NCBI GenBank assembly: GCA_031291305.1
Contig: JARLJH010000054.1
Coordinates: 1-64,000 of the forward strand
Direction: 5' to 3'
DNA: 64,000 nucleotides
DNA from: Rhodoferax sp.
Lineage (GTDB): Bacteria; Pseudomonadota; Gammaproteobacteria; Burkholderiales; Burkholderiaceae_C
The number at the start of each line of letters is the position of its first letter. Position 1 is the stretch's first letter. This document shows positions 2,907 through 64,000 of this stretch, piece after piece. The notes beneath the pieces are model-generated. The model saw only the letters and a program-made list of their open reading frames with translations, had not been told where the DNA came from and did not search any database. The position numbers and the translations under genes are program-made.

Positions 2907-5777
2907 TCAGCCCGTGTTCCGCAGTCCCGCTGCAATCCCGTTGATCGAGATGTGAATGCCGCGCTTGATGCGCTCATCACTGTTGCCCGCGCGGTAGCGG
3001 CGCACCAGTTCCACCTGCAGGTGGTGCAACGGGTCGATGTAGGGAAAGCGGTGGCGCATGGAGCGTTGCAGCGAGGCGTTGTGCGCGAGCCGCTGCGAGT
3101 CACCCGTTATCAGCTGCAGTGCGTGCACGGTGCGATGCCATTCGGCCTCAATGGCTGCGAAGATTTTTTTGCGCAGCTTCTTGTCGGCCACCAGCTCGGC
3201 GTAGCGTGAGGCTAAGGCCATGTCACTTTTAGCCAGAACCATGTCCATGTTGGATAGGAGCGTATTGAAGAAGGGCCATTGTTGCTCCATTTTTTGGAGC
3301 ATTGCAAGGCGCTGTTTGCTGAGCTTGGCAGGTGTTTTGTCTTCGTTGGGGTACAAAAACTTTTCCACCGCCGAACCAAAGCCAAACCAACCAGGCAAGG
3401 TCAGGCGGCATTGGCCCCAGCTGAAGCCCCAGGGGATGGCGCGCAAGTCTTCAATCTTTTGCGTGGCCTTGCGCGAGGCCGGGCGCGAGCCGATGTTGAG
3501 TTCGGCGATTTCGCGGATGGGCGTGGCACCAAAGAAGTAGTCGGTGAAGCCGGGGGTCTCGTACACCAGTGCCCGGTAAGCTGCCATGCTGGCCAGTGAA
3601 ATCTCGGCCGCAGCCTCCAGAAAGGCCGGTTCAGCCGCCTGGGTGGGGTGCAGCAGAGTGGCTTCCAGGGTGGCCGCGACCAGGGTCTCCAGGTTGCGGC
3701 GACCAATTTCGGGGTTGGCGTATTTGGAGCCGATTACCTCACCTTGTTCGGTCAGGCGGATCTGGCCGCGCACGGTGCCGGGGGGCTGCGCCAGAATGGC
3801 CTCGAAGCTGGGGCCGCCGCCACGCCCAACCGTGCCGCCCCGGCCGTGGAACATGCGCAACTGGATGAAATCACGGTTGTCAGGGGTCGGGTGGGCCTGG
3901 TTGATCTCGTCAAACACCTCCACCAGAGCAAGTTCACCGCGGTACAGCTCCCAGTTGCTGGTGAAGATGCCGCCGTCCTTGTTGCTGTCGGAGTAGCCCA
4001 GCATGATGTCCTGCTCGCCATACTGGTCGGCATTGCCGCGCTGCACCATGGCCAGAATGCCGGGCAGGGCGTAAAAGGTTTGCATGATCGGAGCGGCGTG
4101 GCGCAGGTCGTCAATGGTCTCGAACAGCGGCACCACAATCAGGTCGCAGGTGGCGTTGTCGCCGTCCAGCGTGCCGCGCATCAGGCCCACTTCTTTTTGC
4201 AGCAGCATCACTTCCAGCAAGTCACTCACGGTTTCGGTGTGGCTGATGATGTAGTGGCGAATGGCCTGGGCACCATAGCGCTCGCGCATGGTTTTGGCGG
4301 CTTCGAAAATGGCGATTTCGCTGAGCGTGTGCTCGCTGTAAGTGGCCCCCACTACGCGCAACGGCCGGGCTTCGTTGAGCAGGGTCAGCAGCAGCTGGCA
4401 TTTGGCAGCTTCGTCCAGACTGGCGTAGTTGGCAGTGACGCGGGCGTTGGACAGCAGCTCGGTGAGCACCGCTTCGTGCTGGTCGGAGCTTTGGCGCAGG
4501 TCCACCGTGGCCAGGTGAAAACCAAACACCTGGATGGCACGCATCAGCGGCTGCAGGTGCTGGGTCACCAAGGGTTGGGCGCGTTGTGACAGCAAAGAGG
4601 CTTCAATCACCCGCAGATCGGCCAGCAGTTCTTTCGCCGTTACATAGGGGTTCTGCGGTGGCACAGCATGGCGCGCGGCCTCACCGCCCGTCAGTTCCTT
4701 GAGCGTCGCAGCCAGCCGGGCATAAACGCCGATCAGCGCGCGGCGATAGGGTTCGTCCTTGCGGTGCTCGCTGGTGTCGGCAGAGTGTTCTGCCAGGGCC
4801 TGCATGTCGGGTGAAAATGTCATCAGCAGCGCCGATTGCGACAAATCACCGCCCAGCAGGTGAATTTCGGTGAGGTAGTGGCGGATGGCCACGTCCGCTT
4901 GGCGGCGCAGGGCGTGCTCCAGGGTATGGGCGTTGACGTTGGGGTTGCCGTCGCGGTCGCCACCAATCCACTGACCCATGCGCAGGAAGTTGGCAATCGG
5001 CTGCTGGCCCAAGGCTTGTTCCAGATGGGCGTAGATCCGCGGAATTTCACGCAAGAAGGTCGATTCGTAATAACTCAGCGCGTTGTCCACCTCGTTGGCC
5101 ACGGTGAGTTTGGAAAAGCGCAGCAGCCGGGTTTGCCACAGTTGCAACACACGGGCGTGCAACTGGGCCTCGTTGTCGGCCAATTGGCTCGGGGCCAGCG
5201 CATCTTCGGGCACATGGTAGGCGATGGCCTGTGCCAGGATGTCATCGCGCTGGGCCAGCAGTTTGGCAATGTCACGCTCGGCATCCAGAATGCTTTTGCG
5301 CTGCACTTCGGTCGGGTGGGCGGTCAACACGGGTGAGACATAACTGTGCGCCAGCATCTCGCTGATGGCTTGTGGGGTGATGCCGCCTTCTGACAGGCGC
5401 TGCAGCGTTTTGCCAATGCTGCCTTCGCGTACCTGTCCCATGCGCAGGTGTATGGCGCGGCGGCGAATGTGATGCCTGTCTTCAGCCAGGTTGGCCAAGT
5501 GGCTGAAGTAGGTGAAAGCACGCACCACGCTGACGGTCTTGTCGCCACTGAGCGACTTGAGCAGCTTGCTCAGCGTCTTGTCCGCCTCATGATCCGCATC
5601 CCGGCGGAAGGCCACGGACAGTTGGCGAATCTGTTCCACCAGGGCAAAGGCGGCGTCGCCTTCTTGCTCTCGGATCACGTCGCCCAGGATGCGGCCTAAC
5701 AGACGGATGTCTTCGATCAGGGGCTGCTCAGTGTTTTGGGGACTGGTTTTGGTGCGGGGTGTGCTGATCTTGGTCAT
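2907..5777 (-). CDS. ppc: Phosphoenolpyruvate carboxylase
   Basis: This cytoplasmic enzyme carboxylates phosphoenolpyruvate to oxaloacetate with bicarbonate, replenishing the TCA cycle. Family signatures are present: the catalytic-histidine motif [11 protein letters not shown] (about residue 154), [10 protein letters not shown], the loop [24 protein letters not shown], and the C-terminal signature ending RNTG. I chose the ATG at 5777 (956 residues) because the extra 12 residues from the upstream ATG at 5813 look non-conserved. It is divergent from hemC with about 100 bases between them, and the palindromic repeat follows its stop. The length is normal for the bacterial enzyme. Confidence 0.97.
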
Positions 5778-58039: not shown

Positions 58040-58116
58040 GCGGCTGTAGCTCAGTTGGATAGAGTACTTGGCTACGAACCAAGGGGTCGTGGGTTCGATT
58101 CCTGCCAGCCGCACCA
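58040..58116 (+). tRNA. tRNA-Arg (anticodon ACG)
   Basis: The 77-base cloverleaf has GCGGCTG/CAGCCGC acceptor, anticodon loop CTACGAA (ACG), T-loop TTCGATT and encoded CCA. It is 26 bases after the first tRNA. Its 3' end marks the border between housekeeping genes and the element to the right, so it is a likely integration site. Confidence 0.95.
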
Positions 58117-58125
58117 ATATAATCA

Positions 58126-58158
58126 AGGGGTTACAGATTTCGGTCTGTAACCCTTTTT
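58126..58158 (+). terminator. Rho-independent terminator after tRNA-Arg
   Basis: A perfect 10-bp stem, GGGTTACAGA (58128-58137) with TCTGTAACCC (58144-58153), is followed by TTTTT. It lies 12 bases after the tRNA. Confidence 0.88.
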
Positions 58159-58251
58159 GGTTTTTGGTCGATTTACCCCTTCCGTGTCCCGCGTGTGTCC
58201 CGATTATCAAAAGGCACAGTCTGCTTCCCCTCCCCCTTCATCCTTCCGGCT

Positions 58252-58722
58252 TCATGCGCGACTGCATATCGCGCTGAAGGGTATCCCCCAAACTCCCGCA
58301 TTTATGGCTGTGATGATTTCGCCTTCTGTAACGGTGCGCGATTTCGATATCAGGCATGGAAAGTCATAACCATCCGCAGCAAATTTTGCAAGAGCTTCGA
58401 TATCCGCAGTTGTTCTTGCGCTGAGGAGGTTTGAATCGTCCTTCCATTCCCGGTTCGCGGCGTACCAGCGATCAAACCTTTCTTGCAGTTCCCTTGCCAG
58501 ATGCCGCGCTTCGATGCGTTGCGCCTTGGATGGATTTAACGGTGGCTGATACGGTTCGTAATATTCCGCCCACCGCGCAAACCGCACATGCCGTATCAAG
58601 CCATAGAGCAGCGTCAAGTATTGGTCGTCGCCATCGGCAGCGTCAATGTATTCCGGGAGCGCCAGTGCATCGCGGGCGGCTTGAATATATCCTTCGTAAG
58701 TATCGCAGTGCAGAGTTTCCAT
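58252..58722 (-). CDS. Hypothetical protein of the integrated element, 156 aa
   Basis: I recognise no family. The protein is soluble and mostly helical, rich in Tyr, Trp and charged residues, with RWAEYYEPYQPPLNPSKAQR in the middle and an Arg-Cys C-terminus. An AGGGAAG ribosome site precedes the ATG at 58722. It is the gene nearest to the tRNA-Arg junction. The 21-bp-phased repeats lie about 80 bases before its start. Confidence 0.6.
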   Translation of the reverse strand: METLHCDTYEGYIQAARDALALPEYIDAADGDDQYLTLLYGLIRHVRFARWAEYYEPYQPPLNPSKAQRIEARHLARELQERFDRWYAANREWKDDSNLLSARTTADIEALAKFAADGYDFPCLISKSRTVTEGEIITAINAGVWGIPFSAICSRA

Positions 58723-59048
58723 ATGCTTCCCTATTTCAGTTGATCGAGCACACAGTATGGCGCATTGGTGAAGGGTTTACAAGGGCTTGCCAGTGTGATA
58801 TAGAAACGTACTAACTACCTGAATGTTAGTATGTTCGGCGAACTTGTTAGTACGTTCAACCGCTTAGTTAGCGGGTTCGACCACTCGGAGCGAGGGGGTG
58901 GGCTGGACCATCGCAAGGCGTCGGGCGTTCGGATGGTGGGCCCACGTAGAGCAACTGCCAAAAATTGGTGACCTACACACGTTTTCCTAGACAAAGCGAA
59001 ACTGCCGCCTATACTTCATTGTCAATAAATTAGAAATAGGGTCAGATT
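58723..59048. other. Divergent control region of the element
   Basis: About 325 bases without a gene lie between the 156-aa gene (minus) and the 342-aa gene (plus). They hold the phased repeats and, at 58899-58945, an imperfect GC-rich inverted repeat (GTGGGC...CCATC with GATGG...GCCCAC). The plus gene has a weak GGGTCAG ribosome site. The region may be an operator or replication origin. Confidence 0.5.
58804..58887. repeat. 12-bp repeats phased at 21 bp (iteron-like)
   Basis: Three direct copies start at 58825 (GTTAGTATGTTC), 58846 (GTTAGTACGTTC) and 58867 (GTTAGCGGGTTC). A fourth, inverted copy occupies 58804-58815 (AAACGTACTAAC). All four starts are exactly 21 bases apart, two turns of the helix, so a protein could bind all sites on one face. 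They lie between two divergent genes of the element. Confidence 0.75.
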
Positions 59049-60077
59049 ATGCGTAATAGTATTTATGCACTTATCGTATTCAGCGCTGCGGTTTCCATGC
59101 AACACTCTTACGCAAATAACAGTAAATATCCGTCAAGCGATATATACGCAATTAGTGGCGAGGCCACAATATTTCTGGGGCCAAACGTTAGTCCGTTGAA
59201 GAAATGCAATGGGCAAAGGTTTGGAGTCGAGACCAGCGGCGCTGTTGACGCAATGCACTTTCGAGACCTTTGCTACGTATTAAAGGGGGCAGGCAAAGTG
59301 CGGATCACCGACCCCAACACGGGGAAATCGTTTTATATGAATCTTTCTGATTTTAAGCCCGCGCCAATCACACCGCCTGAAATTGTGCAGGAGGCGATCA
59401 AATCAGCTAAAGTTCAGGTAGAAAAAAAAGTAATATCAAAATCTGCCAAGGTTCCGATAGCCAAACAGAAAGTTGCACAAACTCCGGTTCCGGTCGCCGA
59501 ACAACAGGTAGCGAAGCTACCAGAAGAGGACAGCCCTTGGCGATGGTTCAAGAAACAGCCAGAAAGCTATATCTTTTTATCCGAAGCGCCAAGCATCGAA
59601 AAGGGTTGTGAGGGGCAGAACGAAGCAAGCGAGCAAAATCTAGTTCTGGATAAGTGGATATGGATTCGTCACCTATGCTACGTAGTAGACAAATCGGGCA
59701 AGGTTAAAGTTACCGACCCTGCCAAAATGATGTTCTTCGATACGTTCACGCTGAATGCATCAGACTTCACGCGTATACCAACCAACGCGGAACAGGCGCA
59801 GATCGAGCAGCAACAGCGAGCAAACCAATGGGCGCAGAATATCCGATCTGCACAGCAGCAAAATAACGAACGCGCCGCATACCAACCCACGTGGCAACCC
59901 AGACAAAACACTTACCAAAACTTTGATCAAGAAAACCAAATGGCCGACCTGCAAGCAAGGCAGCGCCAACTGGAAATACAACAACAGGAGGCAGACGCAG
60001 AAAACCGGATGCGGCTGCAGCGCATCCAGGACGATTACGATGCCCAACAACTACATCGTGACATTTGGCAGCAATGA
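59049..60077 (+). CDS. Secreted protein with two internal repeats and a Gln-rich coil
   Basis: The 342-residue protein of no known family has a signal peptide (about 1-23, ending SYANN). Two related modules follow, about residues 30-112 and 175-240. Each has an IFL start, a cysteine (KKCNGQ / KGCEGQ), an RDLCYVL / RHLCYVV core, GKVRITDP / GKVKVTDP, and a terminal SDF. The linker is rich in Lys, Val and Pro, and the C-terminal 90 residues are Gln/Asn-rich coiled coil. It looks periplasmic or surface-bound; the function is unknown. Confidence 0.65.
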   Translation: MRNSIYALIVFSAAVSMQHSYANNSKYPSSDIYAISGEATIFLGPNVSPLKKCNGQRFGVETSGAVDAMHFRDLCYVLKGAGKVRITDPNTGKSFYMNLSDFKPAPITPPEIVQEAIKSAKVQVEKKVISKSAKVPIAKQKVAQTPVPVAEQQVAKLPEEDSPWRWFKKQPESYIFLSEAPSIEKGCEGQNEASEQNLVLDKWIWIRHLCYVVDKSGKVKVTDPAKMMFFDTFTLNASDFTRIPTNAEQAQIEQQQRANQWAQNIRSAQQQNNERAAYQPTWQPRQNTYQNFDQENQMADLQARQRQLEIQQQEADAENRMRLQRIQDDYDAQQLHRDIWQQ

Positions 60078-61704: not shown

Positions 61705-61810
61705 AGTGGTGGACAGTGGTGGAGTTTGGGGTTTTTCAATGTTTTCACACAAGGAAATTTTTATAGAGAAAAACCCCAAAAAAGCCCCAACTCCACCACT
61801 GTCCACCACT
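61705..61810. repeat. Long inverted repeat beside the primase gene
   Basis: Arms at 61705-61737 and 61768-61810 share a perfect 22-base outer block and an 11-base inner block; the right arm carries about 10 extra bases. Each arm contains two GTGGTGGA units. The spacer is AT-rich. It lies between the primase stop and the next gene start, so it could be a replication structure, an attenuator or a mobile hairpin. Confidence 0.75.
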
Positions 61811-61829: not shown

Positions 61830-64000
61830 CTATCGCTTCGCCATACCTCTGTAGTATGCGCCTTGATTATTGGCCCCTTTGCTGCATCCCCGGTCCTTCA
61901 GTTTCTGCGAAAAAGTTTGGTTGCTAATTTGGCGGTGCCCATTGTTGAACGACCAGTTTTTGTAACTTGCATACGCTTCGCCAGCACGGATTTGTAGGTC
62001 AGCGCCAATGGTGCACTCGTCGTCAATCCAATGCTGCACTAAATCCATATCGGACTTGTACGCTTCGATCTGCCGGACAATCTCCGTTGGGCGGTCGAGT
62101 CCTCGCCGTTGCCATTCGATGCATCCGGCTATAAGCCAGTTCAGGATGCCGGGGCGTTCATTGCACAAAAGTTCCGGCAGGTGTTTGTTCTGCTCGCTTG
62201 GTAAAAATTTGTGGTCAAAGCCGATCATTACCAGCCGCCGCCATATACCGTAGTCGTTGCCGCGAATGACCGGACGATGATTGCCAGCTAACCAAAGTTT
62301 GAACAGCGGAACGAAGTCGAACGGTGCGCCGTGCAAGACTCTGGCAGTCATGGCATCCCCGCCCGTAAGCTGTTTCACCATTGCTTCCGCAAGCCGCTGC
62401 CCTTCTTCGGTCTCATTCGCGGCGACGAATCGCGGGCCTGCCAACCGGGCAATTTCAGGTGTTGGCCCGGAGGCGTTAATGTTGGATTTCGCCATCAACA
62501 CTTCAGGTGAGGTCTGTATGCCATAACTACCGGCAATTTCGCGCAATACATTTAATACGGTTGATTTACCGTTAGCGCCGCTACCATACAAGAAGAACAA
62601 ACATTGCTCCGACGTGCTCCCGGTTATCGAATACCCCGCCGACCGCTGAAAGAAAGCCACTACTTCCGGGTTTTCATTAAGCACTGTATTGATCGTAGCT
62701 TCCCAAACCGGACAGGTTGCCCCGGCGACATACTCAACATTCATGCGGCGTGTAATCAAGTCATCGGCAGTCGCTGGCCGGAATTCGCCAGACCGCAGAT
62801 CAACGACGCCATTTAGCACACCGATTAAAAACGGGTTGGCGTCTAGTTCGCTCGCTGCAACTGGAATTCCAGCGCATGATTTCATCAACTCGATTGCAGC
62901 CGCTATTCTGGAAAGCGACAGGCTATTGCTCGCATGCTGCGCAAGACGCTTCGCATCGCCGGTATGACTTTCCTGCTTGGCCTCGTCATATATGCCACGC
63001 ATAACGCCCGTGGCGTACTGCACCACGCCGCCACGGCCATCCCAGCGCCAGTGCATGTCATCCCAAACCAGCCATCCCGCCAAGTCCTTGCACCAGCGTA
63101 GCCGCCCCGCAGCGGCCCTTACAATACGATCTGCGTTGCCAGCGTCGTTAAGGTCTTGCAGTTTGCCGGACGGGGCATTGAGTGCTGAAGCTGCTGCTAC
63201 GGCGACCCGCCCCAACTGTATTGGCGATGTGATTTTCCCTTTGTGTGTGCAACCGTCGCACCCAGTGGGATTATGCTGGCCAAAGAACTGGCAGGTAGTC
63301 GGCCCCGCGTTCCATGTGTCGAGTTTCTGCTGGGTTTCGGCATTGCTATACTGCGGACTTTTCCCGCTCCAGACATGGGCTATCGCTTCGCCGCCTTCGC
63401 AATGCTTCACGATTCCGATGACGCCACGCCACGTATCGTATCCATCACCACCATTCTCGCGCACGCGGGCGATTTGCTGGCATCGGTCTGCAATCAAGTT
63501 CGCGTCGATTGGCGCATCTGGGTAAGCGCGTGCCGTCATGTGCCCGGTAAGATCGCTATTCATACCGTCTGTATATGCAGTAACGTGCTCAATACATACA
63601 TCGTAGTTGGCGACGATGTTGCTTAGTATGGCAATGAATTCCGAAGGTGTATGCGATACTGCCTTGTTCCCGATTGCCTTGACCTCTTTAAGTGCATCAG
63701 GGTTCTTTTTGTTGTGACTACCTACCGGGCGCAATATCGACGCCATGTCAGCGGTGCGCGACGGATCGGCCCGCACGCCAAACTTTTTTAGCACGGCCTT
63801 CAAGGTAACAGCCTGTACCTTCCATACGTCTGGCGGGATGGCTTCGGTCAACGGCCAGTAGGCATGCAAACCATTGCCAGACGATACCAGCACAGGGACA
63901 GGAAAGCTGGTTAGTTTGCAGAAGTTGGATATGGCTATTGCCGCGTCTCGTTTTGTGACGTAGCCTTTACCTTCCGCCGCTTTTGCAGGCCCACAGTCCA
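61830..64000 (-). CDS. D5-type phage primase-helicase (partial, cut by window edge)
   Basis: The open frame continues to the right window edge with no in-frame stop, so the N-terminus is missing (723 residues seen). SGNGLHAYWPL belongs to a primase-polymerase-like domain. A PriCT-type segment and a CDGC zinc-like pair follow, then the D5_N region and an SF3 helicase with Walker A GSGANGKST and motif C LWLAGNH. A C-terminal winged-helix part ends the protein. Such proteins start replication of phages, plasmids and phage satellites. It leads a leftward gene run. Confidence 0.88.
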   Translation of the reverse strand, partial: DCGPAKAAEGKGYVTKRDAAIAISNFCKLTSFPVPVLVSSGNGLHAYWPLTEAIPPDVWKVQAVTLKAVLKKFGVRADPSRTADMASILRPVGSHNKKNPDALKEVKAIGNKAVSHTPSEFIAILSNIVANYDVCIEHVTAYTDGMNSDLTGHMTARAYPDAPIDANLIADRCQQIARVRENGGDGYDTWRGVIGIVKHCEGGEAIAHVWSGKSPQYSNAETQQKLDTWNAGPTTCQFFGQHNPTGCDGCTHKGKITSPIQLGRVAVAAASALNAPSGKLQDLNDAGNADRIVRAAAGRLRWCKDLAGWLVWDDMHWRWDGRGGVVQYATGVMRGIYDEAKQESHTGDAKRLAQHASNSLSLSRIAAAIELMKSCAGIPVAASELDANPFLIGVLNGVVDLRSGEFRPATADDLITRRMNVEYVAGATCPVWEATINTVLNENPEVVAFFQRSAGYSITGSTSEQCLFFLYGSGANGKSTVLNVLREIAGSYGIQTSPEVLMAKSNINASGPTPEIARLAGPRFVAANETEEGQRLAEAMVKQLTGGDAMTARVLHGAPFDFVPLFKLWLAGNHRPVIRGNDYGIWRRLVMIGFDHKFLPSEQNKHLPELLCNERPGILNWLIAGCIEWQRRGLDRPTEIVRQIEAYKSDMDLVQHWIDDECTIGADLQIRAGEAYASYKNWSFNNGHRQISNQTFSQKLKDRGCSKGANNQGAYYRGMAKR

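Follow-up and report, generated by a model that had tools for sequence, protein, structure and literature searches.

A helix-phased array of four 12-bp repeats, a candidate operator, between divergent genes of a small PICI-like element in Rhodoferax sp.

The integrated element and its gene order

The window analysed here comprises the first 64,000 nucleotides of an 82.0-kb Rhodoferax contig (JARLJH010000054.1), and close to its end begins an element of about 8.5 kb that is integrated in a tRNA-Arg gene (58040-58116). The repeat that forms attL (58064-58174, plus strand) is 111 bp long, covers the 3' part of the tRNA-Arg gene and is 95% identical to contig positions 66577-66687. Read from the far end, the minus strand encodes a tyrosine integrase (contig 65043-66479), AlpA (contig 64470-64691), a primase and two proteins of 148 and 200 residues; then follow, toward the tRNA gene, a 143-aa and a 342-aa ORF on the plus strand, the repeat array and a 156-aa ORF on the minus strand. 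The primase of 837 residues (61830-64000, minus strand, extending beyond the window to contig 64343) is of the P4 type (TIGR01613 with 282 bits at a cut-off of 108.7, D5_N with 93 bits at a cut-off of 22.4), in agreement with the original prediction of a primase-encoding element. The predicted position of the array between divergent genes also holds, the flanking genes being the 156-aa ORF (58252-58722, minus strand), which lies downstream of a leftward promoter-like site and for which no relative was found, and the 342-aa ORF (59049-60077, plus strand), which has an N-terminus that by eye resembles a signal peptide and matches no family above cut-off.

To which class of elements does it belong? 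The layout of the sequence suggests a PICI-like element. Integrase and AlpA profiles (PF00589, PF13356, PF05930) score above cut-off, and the order of int, alpA and primase on one strand is shared with Gram-negative PICIs of the EcCICFT073 type as presented in parts of PMC6092414 and PMC10111431. A candidate origin 3' of the primase gene may be a further shared feature, since a stem-loop follows that gene, a correspondence in sequence layout only. PICI transcription is described as unidirectional in a section of PMC6092414, and as running one way for most genes in a section of PMC10111431; of the eight genes of the present element six are on the minus strand, and those of the 342-aa and 143-aa ORFs are on the plus strand. 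In contrast to the Gram-negative PICIs, for which the part of PMC10111431 used here gives 10-20 kb, the element measures 8.5 kb, its accessory genes are orphans, two of them in the opposite direction, and no helper-related gene was recognised.

Small proteins and relatives of the element

None of the five small proteins of the element scored above cut-off in Pfam or NCBIfam, and none matched PHROGs at E up to 0.01. Below cut-off, the 156-aa protein matched ComP_DUS, the 342-aa protein HopBF1 (16.2 bits, cut-off 200), the 143-aa protein DUF5640 and Sputnik_MCP_1st, and the 148-aa protein Specificity_I and BrxC, matches that were judged to be due to chance. AlphaFold gave a poor model for the 156-aa protein (mean pLDDT 49.5), and a structure model of the 148-aa ORF starting at its ATG (123 residues) reached a mean pLDDT of 67.3.

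Relatives were sought in samples of family, order and genus genomes, each a subset of a larger set. Among 299 family genomes the 156-aa protein had two matches at E ≤ 0.001, one of which was its own copy; the other (4.3e-4) contains an internal stop and overlaps a 911-aa ORF of another kind. In 399 order genomes nothing beyond its own copy was found, and in phages, plasmids and viral contigs it had no match. Similarly, the 200-aa protein retrieved its own copy alone in 299 genomes and nothing in viral contigs or plasmids, the 148-aa protein had no match in viral contigs, and the 342-aa protein had none in plasmids and no second copy in its own genome. In a weak test, the element DNA was compared with 89 genus genomes, with scoring of the three top candidates in each; the matches listed lie either within its first 265 bases or in the att repeat at the far end. 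Relatives of the primase are distant, with at best 40% identity in the 299 family genomes and a single contig at 36% among viral contigs; matches were found in 857 phage records, none of them covering 80% of the primase, and in 377 plasmid records, one of which did. For the integrase, the relatives listed at E ≤ 1e-60 share 39-49% identity. No close relative of the element was found in the collections searched, an absence there not being an absence in nature.

A phased array of four 12-bp repeats

The four-copy phased array of GTTAGTAYGTTC-like 12-mers is real. As originally predicted, four 12-bp repeats follow each other at 21-bp steps, and the positions can be read directly from the sequence: repeat 1 (GTTAGTACGTTT, 58804-58815) is inverted, i.e. 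on the minus strand, and has one mismatch to GTTAGTAYGTTC; repeats 2 (GTTAGTATGTTC, 58825-58836) and 3 (GTTAGTACGTTC, 58846-58857) are on the plus strand with no mismatch; and repeat 4 (GTTAGCGGGTTC, 58867-58878, plus strand) is degenerate with three mismatches. Repeats 1-3 are strong and repeat 4, matching in 9 of 12 positions, retains just GTTAG...GTTC. All four repeat windows are in exact 21-bp register, about two helix turns per step, and the 9-bp spacers between them show by eye no clear conservation. That repeat 1 is inverted but still in exact register favours a site that acts at the level of DNA.

Shuffled sequences, which had been proposed as a control, did not produce comparable phased sets. 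No set of equal score appeared when the 306-bp intergenic stretch was put through 300 dinucleotide shuffles (periods 14-44), with a score of 13 for the array and of 7 for the best shuffle, nor in 200 shuffles of 8.6 kb of the element (periods 15-32, at least four copies). The array is the sole one of its kind in the 77.9 kb of the contig that were examined. In 397 kb around related primases (21 loci) one other phased array was found, in a related genome (L082, 4066-4190), where five copies of a different, TTTTCGGCACATAGGAGCCA-like word follow each other at 25-bp steps. Immediately to the right of the present array, at 58903-58943, lies an imperfect hairpin (GGGCTGGACCATC...GATGGTGGGCCC) that is not followed by a T run.

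Occurrence of the array word elsewhere

In a scanned stretch of 9.3 kb the array word occurs at 10 places with up to three mismatches. The only copies within the element with no or one mismatch are the three of the array, and the next-best place in the stretch, with two mismatches, is at 59187 inside the 342-aa gene. The exact word GTTAGNNNGTTC is found nine times in the 4.98-Mb genome, three times in the array and six times as scattered singles, as compared to 32 occurrences of its reversed control word, and by this word the host genome contains no second array. Given these counts, a host regulator with such a site is unlikely, and the ligand more probably comes from the element itself or from a visiting helper.

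The array region itself had no match in phages or plasmids. Scans for a pair pattern, i.e. the exact word with a fixed 9-bp gap, by which arrays with another word or gap are missed, found 18 stretches in 84,980 genomes, a set from which the own genome may have been left out. When up to 117 bases around each were inspected by eye, 9 of the 18 were clear 21-bp tandem repeats, 4 were partial and 5 were isolated pairs; none resembled the present array. Viral contigs contained the pattern in two stretches, L049 and L050, of the latter of which 601 bases were read. In L049, a viral contig of 90 kb, positions 4615-5381 hold numerous copies of GTTAGTCTRTTCATGG, in both orientations, in the vicinity of a gene whose product has a Rep_3 domain (31 bits, cut-off 22.4). 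These iterons (GTTAGTCTGTTCATGG) differ from repeat 2 by one base over the first 12, and one pair is exactly 21 bp apart, the other steps being 20, 41, 42 or more. Genuine Rep_3 iterons with nearly the word and the step of the array thus exist.

A stem-loop behind the primase gene

Where does replication of the element start? About 20 nucleotides past the stop codon of the primase gene begins a stem-loop (61705-61810) with arms of 41 nucleotides, which are 85% complementary, and a loop of 24 nucleotides, of which 17 are A or T by hand count. Each arm contains AGTGGTGGA twice, and folded as DNA the structure reaches -36.4 kcal/mol (z = -8.21). We consider it a candidate replication origin. Up to 200 bases past the primase stop were surveyed, both for the own element and for 32 of the other 36 primases among the matches listed, and a stem was counted if none of 100 mononucleotide shuffles reached it. 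By this test the own element and 14 of the 32 relatives have such a stem, and 18 relatives have none. In 12 of the 32 it starts 8-53 nucleotides past the stop, and the arms in 11 of these 12 contain by eye a doubled word such as TGACGGATTTGACGG, the exception being L046; as some relatives are near copies of each other (L036, L038), the 12 cases are not independent. In the other two (L041, L042) the stem lies 141-153 nucleotides past the stop and is more terminator-like.

A P4 iteron word, GGTGAACA, does not occur in the own element; GGTGGACA is present in the arms of the stem-loop and is not regular near the primases of the relatives. The excerpts of PMC4234260 on which we draw describe a stem-loop that is needed for pRN1 replication and one that is also found 3' of the replication gene of phage BIP-1, and a large stem-loop just 3' of the primase-helicase gene is what the present element shares with these pRN1-type origins. 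Unlike in those, the arms here have doubled repeats, and the likeness concerns the stem-loop, not the array. PICI origins, according to the relevant part of PMC6092414, are located 3' of the replication gene and consist of an AT-rich region between two sets of iterons, an arrangement that the doubled repeats of the arms and the loop of the present stem-loop match in sequence layout. The replication start of the element is thus probably elsewhere than at the array, which is unlikely to be the main origin, being 2.95 kb away from the end of the primase gene and made of a different word. The stem-loops that 12 of 32 relatives have shortly after the primase stop represent testable candidate origins for this group of primases.

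Alternative explanations for the array

The original prediction offered two functions for the array, cooperative sites for a regulator and iterons of a replication initiator, of which the former still provides the best reading and the latter is weakened. Replication iterons, or a second site like P4 crr, a cis-acting replication site, bound by the primase or another protein of the element, appear unlikely to us, even though the L049 iterons come within one base of repeat 2, include a pair 21 bp apart and lie near a Rep_3 gene, and the C-terminus of the P4-type primase has a sub-threshold match to Pox_D5 (15.9 bits, cut-off 21.4). The array does not lie beside an initiator gene or its candidate origin: the primase gene, the sole initiator-like gene, ends 2.95 kb from it, the array word does not recur there, and the iteron reading is further weakened because the primase stop is followed by a stem-loop with doubled repeats of its own, as a stem-loop is in 12 of 32 relatives. 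Origins of PICI and pRN1 type, as far as the cited parts of PMC6092414 and PMC4234260 describe them, also lie 3' of the replication gene. Moreover, the L049 array differs in having more copies, on both strands and at other steps, next to a Rep_3 gene, whereas no Rep_3 match was found among the proteins of the element or in the present genome, which is 99.99% complete. Iterons would be expected to adjoin an AT-rich melting region; no marked AT-rich tract lies over the array itself (G+C content 0.525 at 58800-58999), though the content falls to 0.405 at 59000-59199. Arm-type sites of the integrase, or sites for an excisionase, would fit the distance of about 0.6 kb from the element end, but such sites would be expected near both att cores, and the array stands at a single end, from which a gene separates it; near the far end nothing of the array word was found beyond a match with three mismatches inside the tRNA repeat (contig 66598). 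This explanation, highly improbable in our view, is weakened by a different doubled word, GTGTCCC (GTGTCCCGCGTGTGTCCC), which is present near both cores, at 58184-58201 (plus strand) and co-oriented at contig 66416-66433, and is a candidate for the integrase arm sites. The section of PMC10111431 on such motifs reports that attP is flanked on either side by a doubled co-oriented motif of other sequence in helper-embedded PICIs, a motif not found in other PICIs, and proposes integrase arm binding among other options.

A step of 21 bp also corresponds to seven codons, and the array could be the remnant of a gene, or a small gene, for a heptad repeat, as the plus strand reads VSMFGEL VSTFNRL VSGFDHS within an open frame of 55 codons (58804-58968) and the copies show synonymous differences at one Leu (CTT/TTA) and one Ser position (AGT/AGC). 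Such a coding origin is nevertheless improbable: by eye no ATG, GTG or TTG precedes repeat 2 in this frame (repeat 2 itself contains an ATG), repeat 1 keeps the register despite its inversion, and the frame has no Pfam family and matches nothing in phages at E up to 1. Of the 89 genus genomes 40 match it at E up to 1, which is background level, and the best match outside its own copy (0.024) contains two stops. Somewhat more doubtful is a packaging or partition site for a protein of a helper phage or plasmid, notwithstanding that PICIs are described in a passage of PMC6092414 as relying on packaging by the helper phage and that no packaging gene was recognised in the present element; of the two viral-contig stretches with the pair pattern L049 is a Rep_3 iteron region and L050 was read over 601 bases, and the host genome is without a second array by GTTAGNNNGTTC. 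Control at the level of RNA, in which a transcript would pair its repeat 1 with either repeat 2 or repeat 3 like a P4-like immunity RNA or an attenuator, is very unlikely. Repeat 1 is indeed a near-perfect reverse complement of repeats 2 and 3, and 58800-58960 folds with z = -2.99 for the plus and z = -2.62 for the minus strand, values to both of which the separate hairpin right of the array contributes. Exact 21-bp steps are however unnecessary for pairing, the Rfam models C4 and isrK matched nowhere in the element at E up to 1, and immunity RNAs, according to the portion of PMC10111431 cited here, are located between the integration and replication zones, while the array lies at the opposite end.

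Promoter-like sites and the array as a candidate operator

Three promoter-like sites, each a match to the consensus only, surround the array. The leftward one for the 156-aa gene (TTGTAA-17-CATACT, 58754-58782, minus strand) is weak with 8 of 12 positions, and its transcription start is estimated near 58747. A rightward site (TTTACA-17-TATAGA, 58776-58804, plus strand) has 9 of 12 positions and a TGn before the second hexamer, and its final base is the first base of repeat 1; these two sites of opposite strands overlap at 58777-58781, next to repeat 1. The third (TAGACA-16-TATACT, 58988-59015, plus strand, 10 of 12) lies upstream of the 342-aa gene. Above a stricter threshold two sites were counted and 1.2 on average in shuffles (sd 1.0), which is no excess.

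We assign a probability of roughly one half to the array being an operator, i.e. a set of sites for one DNA-binding protein encoded by the element that controls the promoter region between the 156-aa and the 342-aa gene of a small PICI-like element. The helical phasing would place the bound proteins on one face of the helix, next to promoters that are themselves weak predictions. It could be imagined that the protein, once bound, assists RNA polymerase at the leftward promoter, which is weak, and obstructs the rightward one, the -10 hexamer of which touches repeat 1. With a leftward start near 58747, the centres of the sites would be at about -62, -83, -104 and -125 relative to it, positions that would be in the helical phase of class I activator sites. 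Candidate ligands would be the product of the 156-aa gene, the 148-aa protein encoded next to the primase and, less likely, AlpA. AlpA is the weaker candidate because AlpA of EcCICFT073 activates its own promoter (described in part of PMC6092414) and no array word with up to three mismatches lies between alpA and int in the present element. Several observations count against the operator: the two promoter-like sites next to the array match at only 8 and 9 of 12 positions, and the stricter threshold gave no excess; the 156-aa and 342-aa products match no DNA-binding family, and the 156-aa model is poor; the three direct copies can also be read as an in-frame heptad VSxFxxL; and the L049 iterons differ by one base from repeat 2. 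Relatives of the array or of the flanking genes, which could show conservation, were not found in the collections searched.

If the array is an operator, it would provide a handle on the control of orphan accessory genes in small satellite-like elements. A more far-reaching version, of which we are rather sceptical, would be a PICI-like satellite with an undescribed switch, composed of a bidirectional promoter, the phased array of four sites and a regulator of a novel family, the adjacent 156-aa protein, by which accessory genes would be turned on or off at induction independently of AlpA. Helix-phased operators of activators and repressors have sites two turns apart by a promoter. Unlike these, the present array has only candidate ligands and no homolog in the collections searched; like them, it combines a spacing of two turns with a promoter-like site nearby, here a weak one, and it is ordinary in kind.
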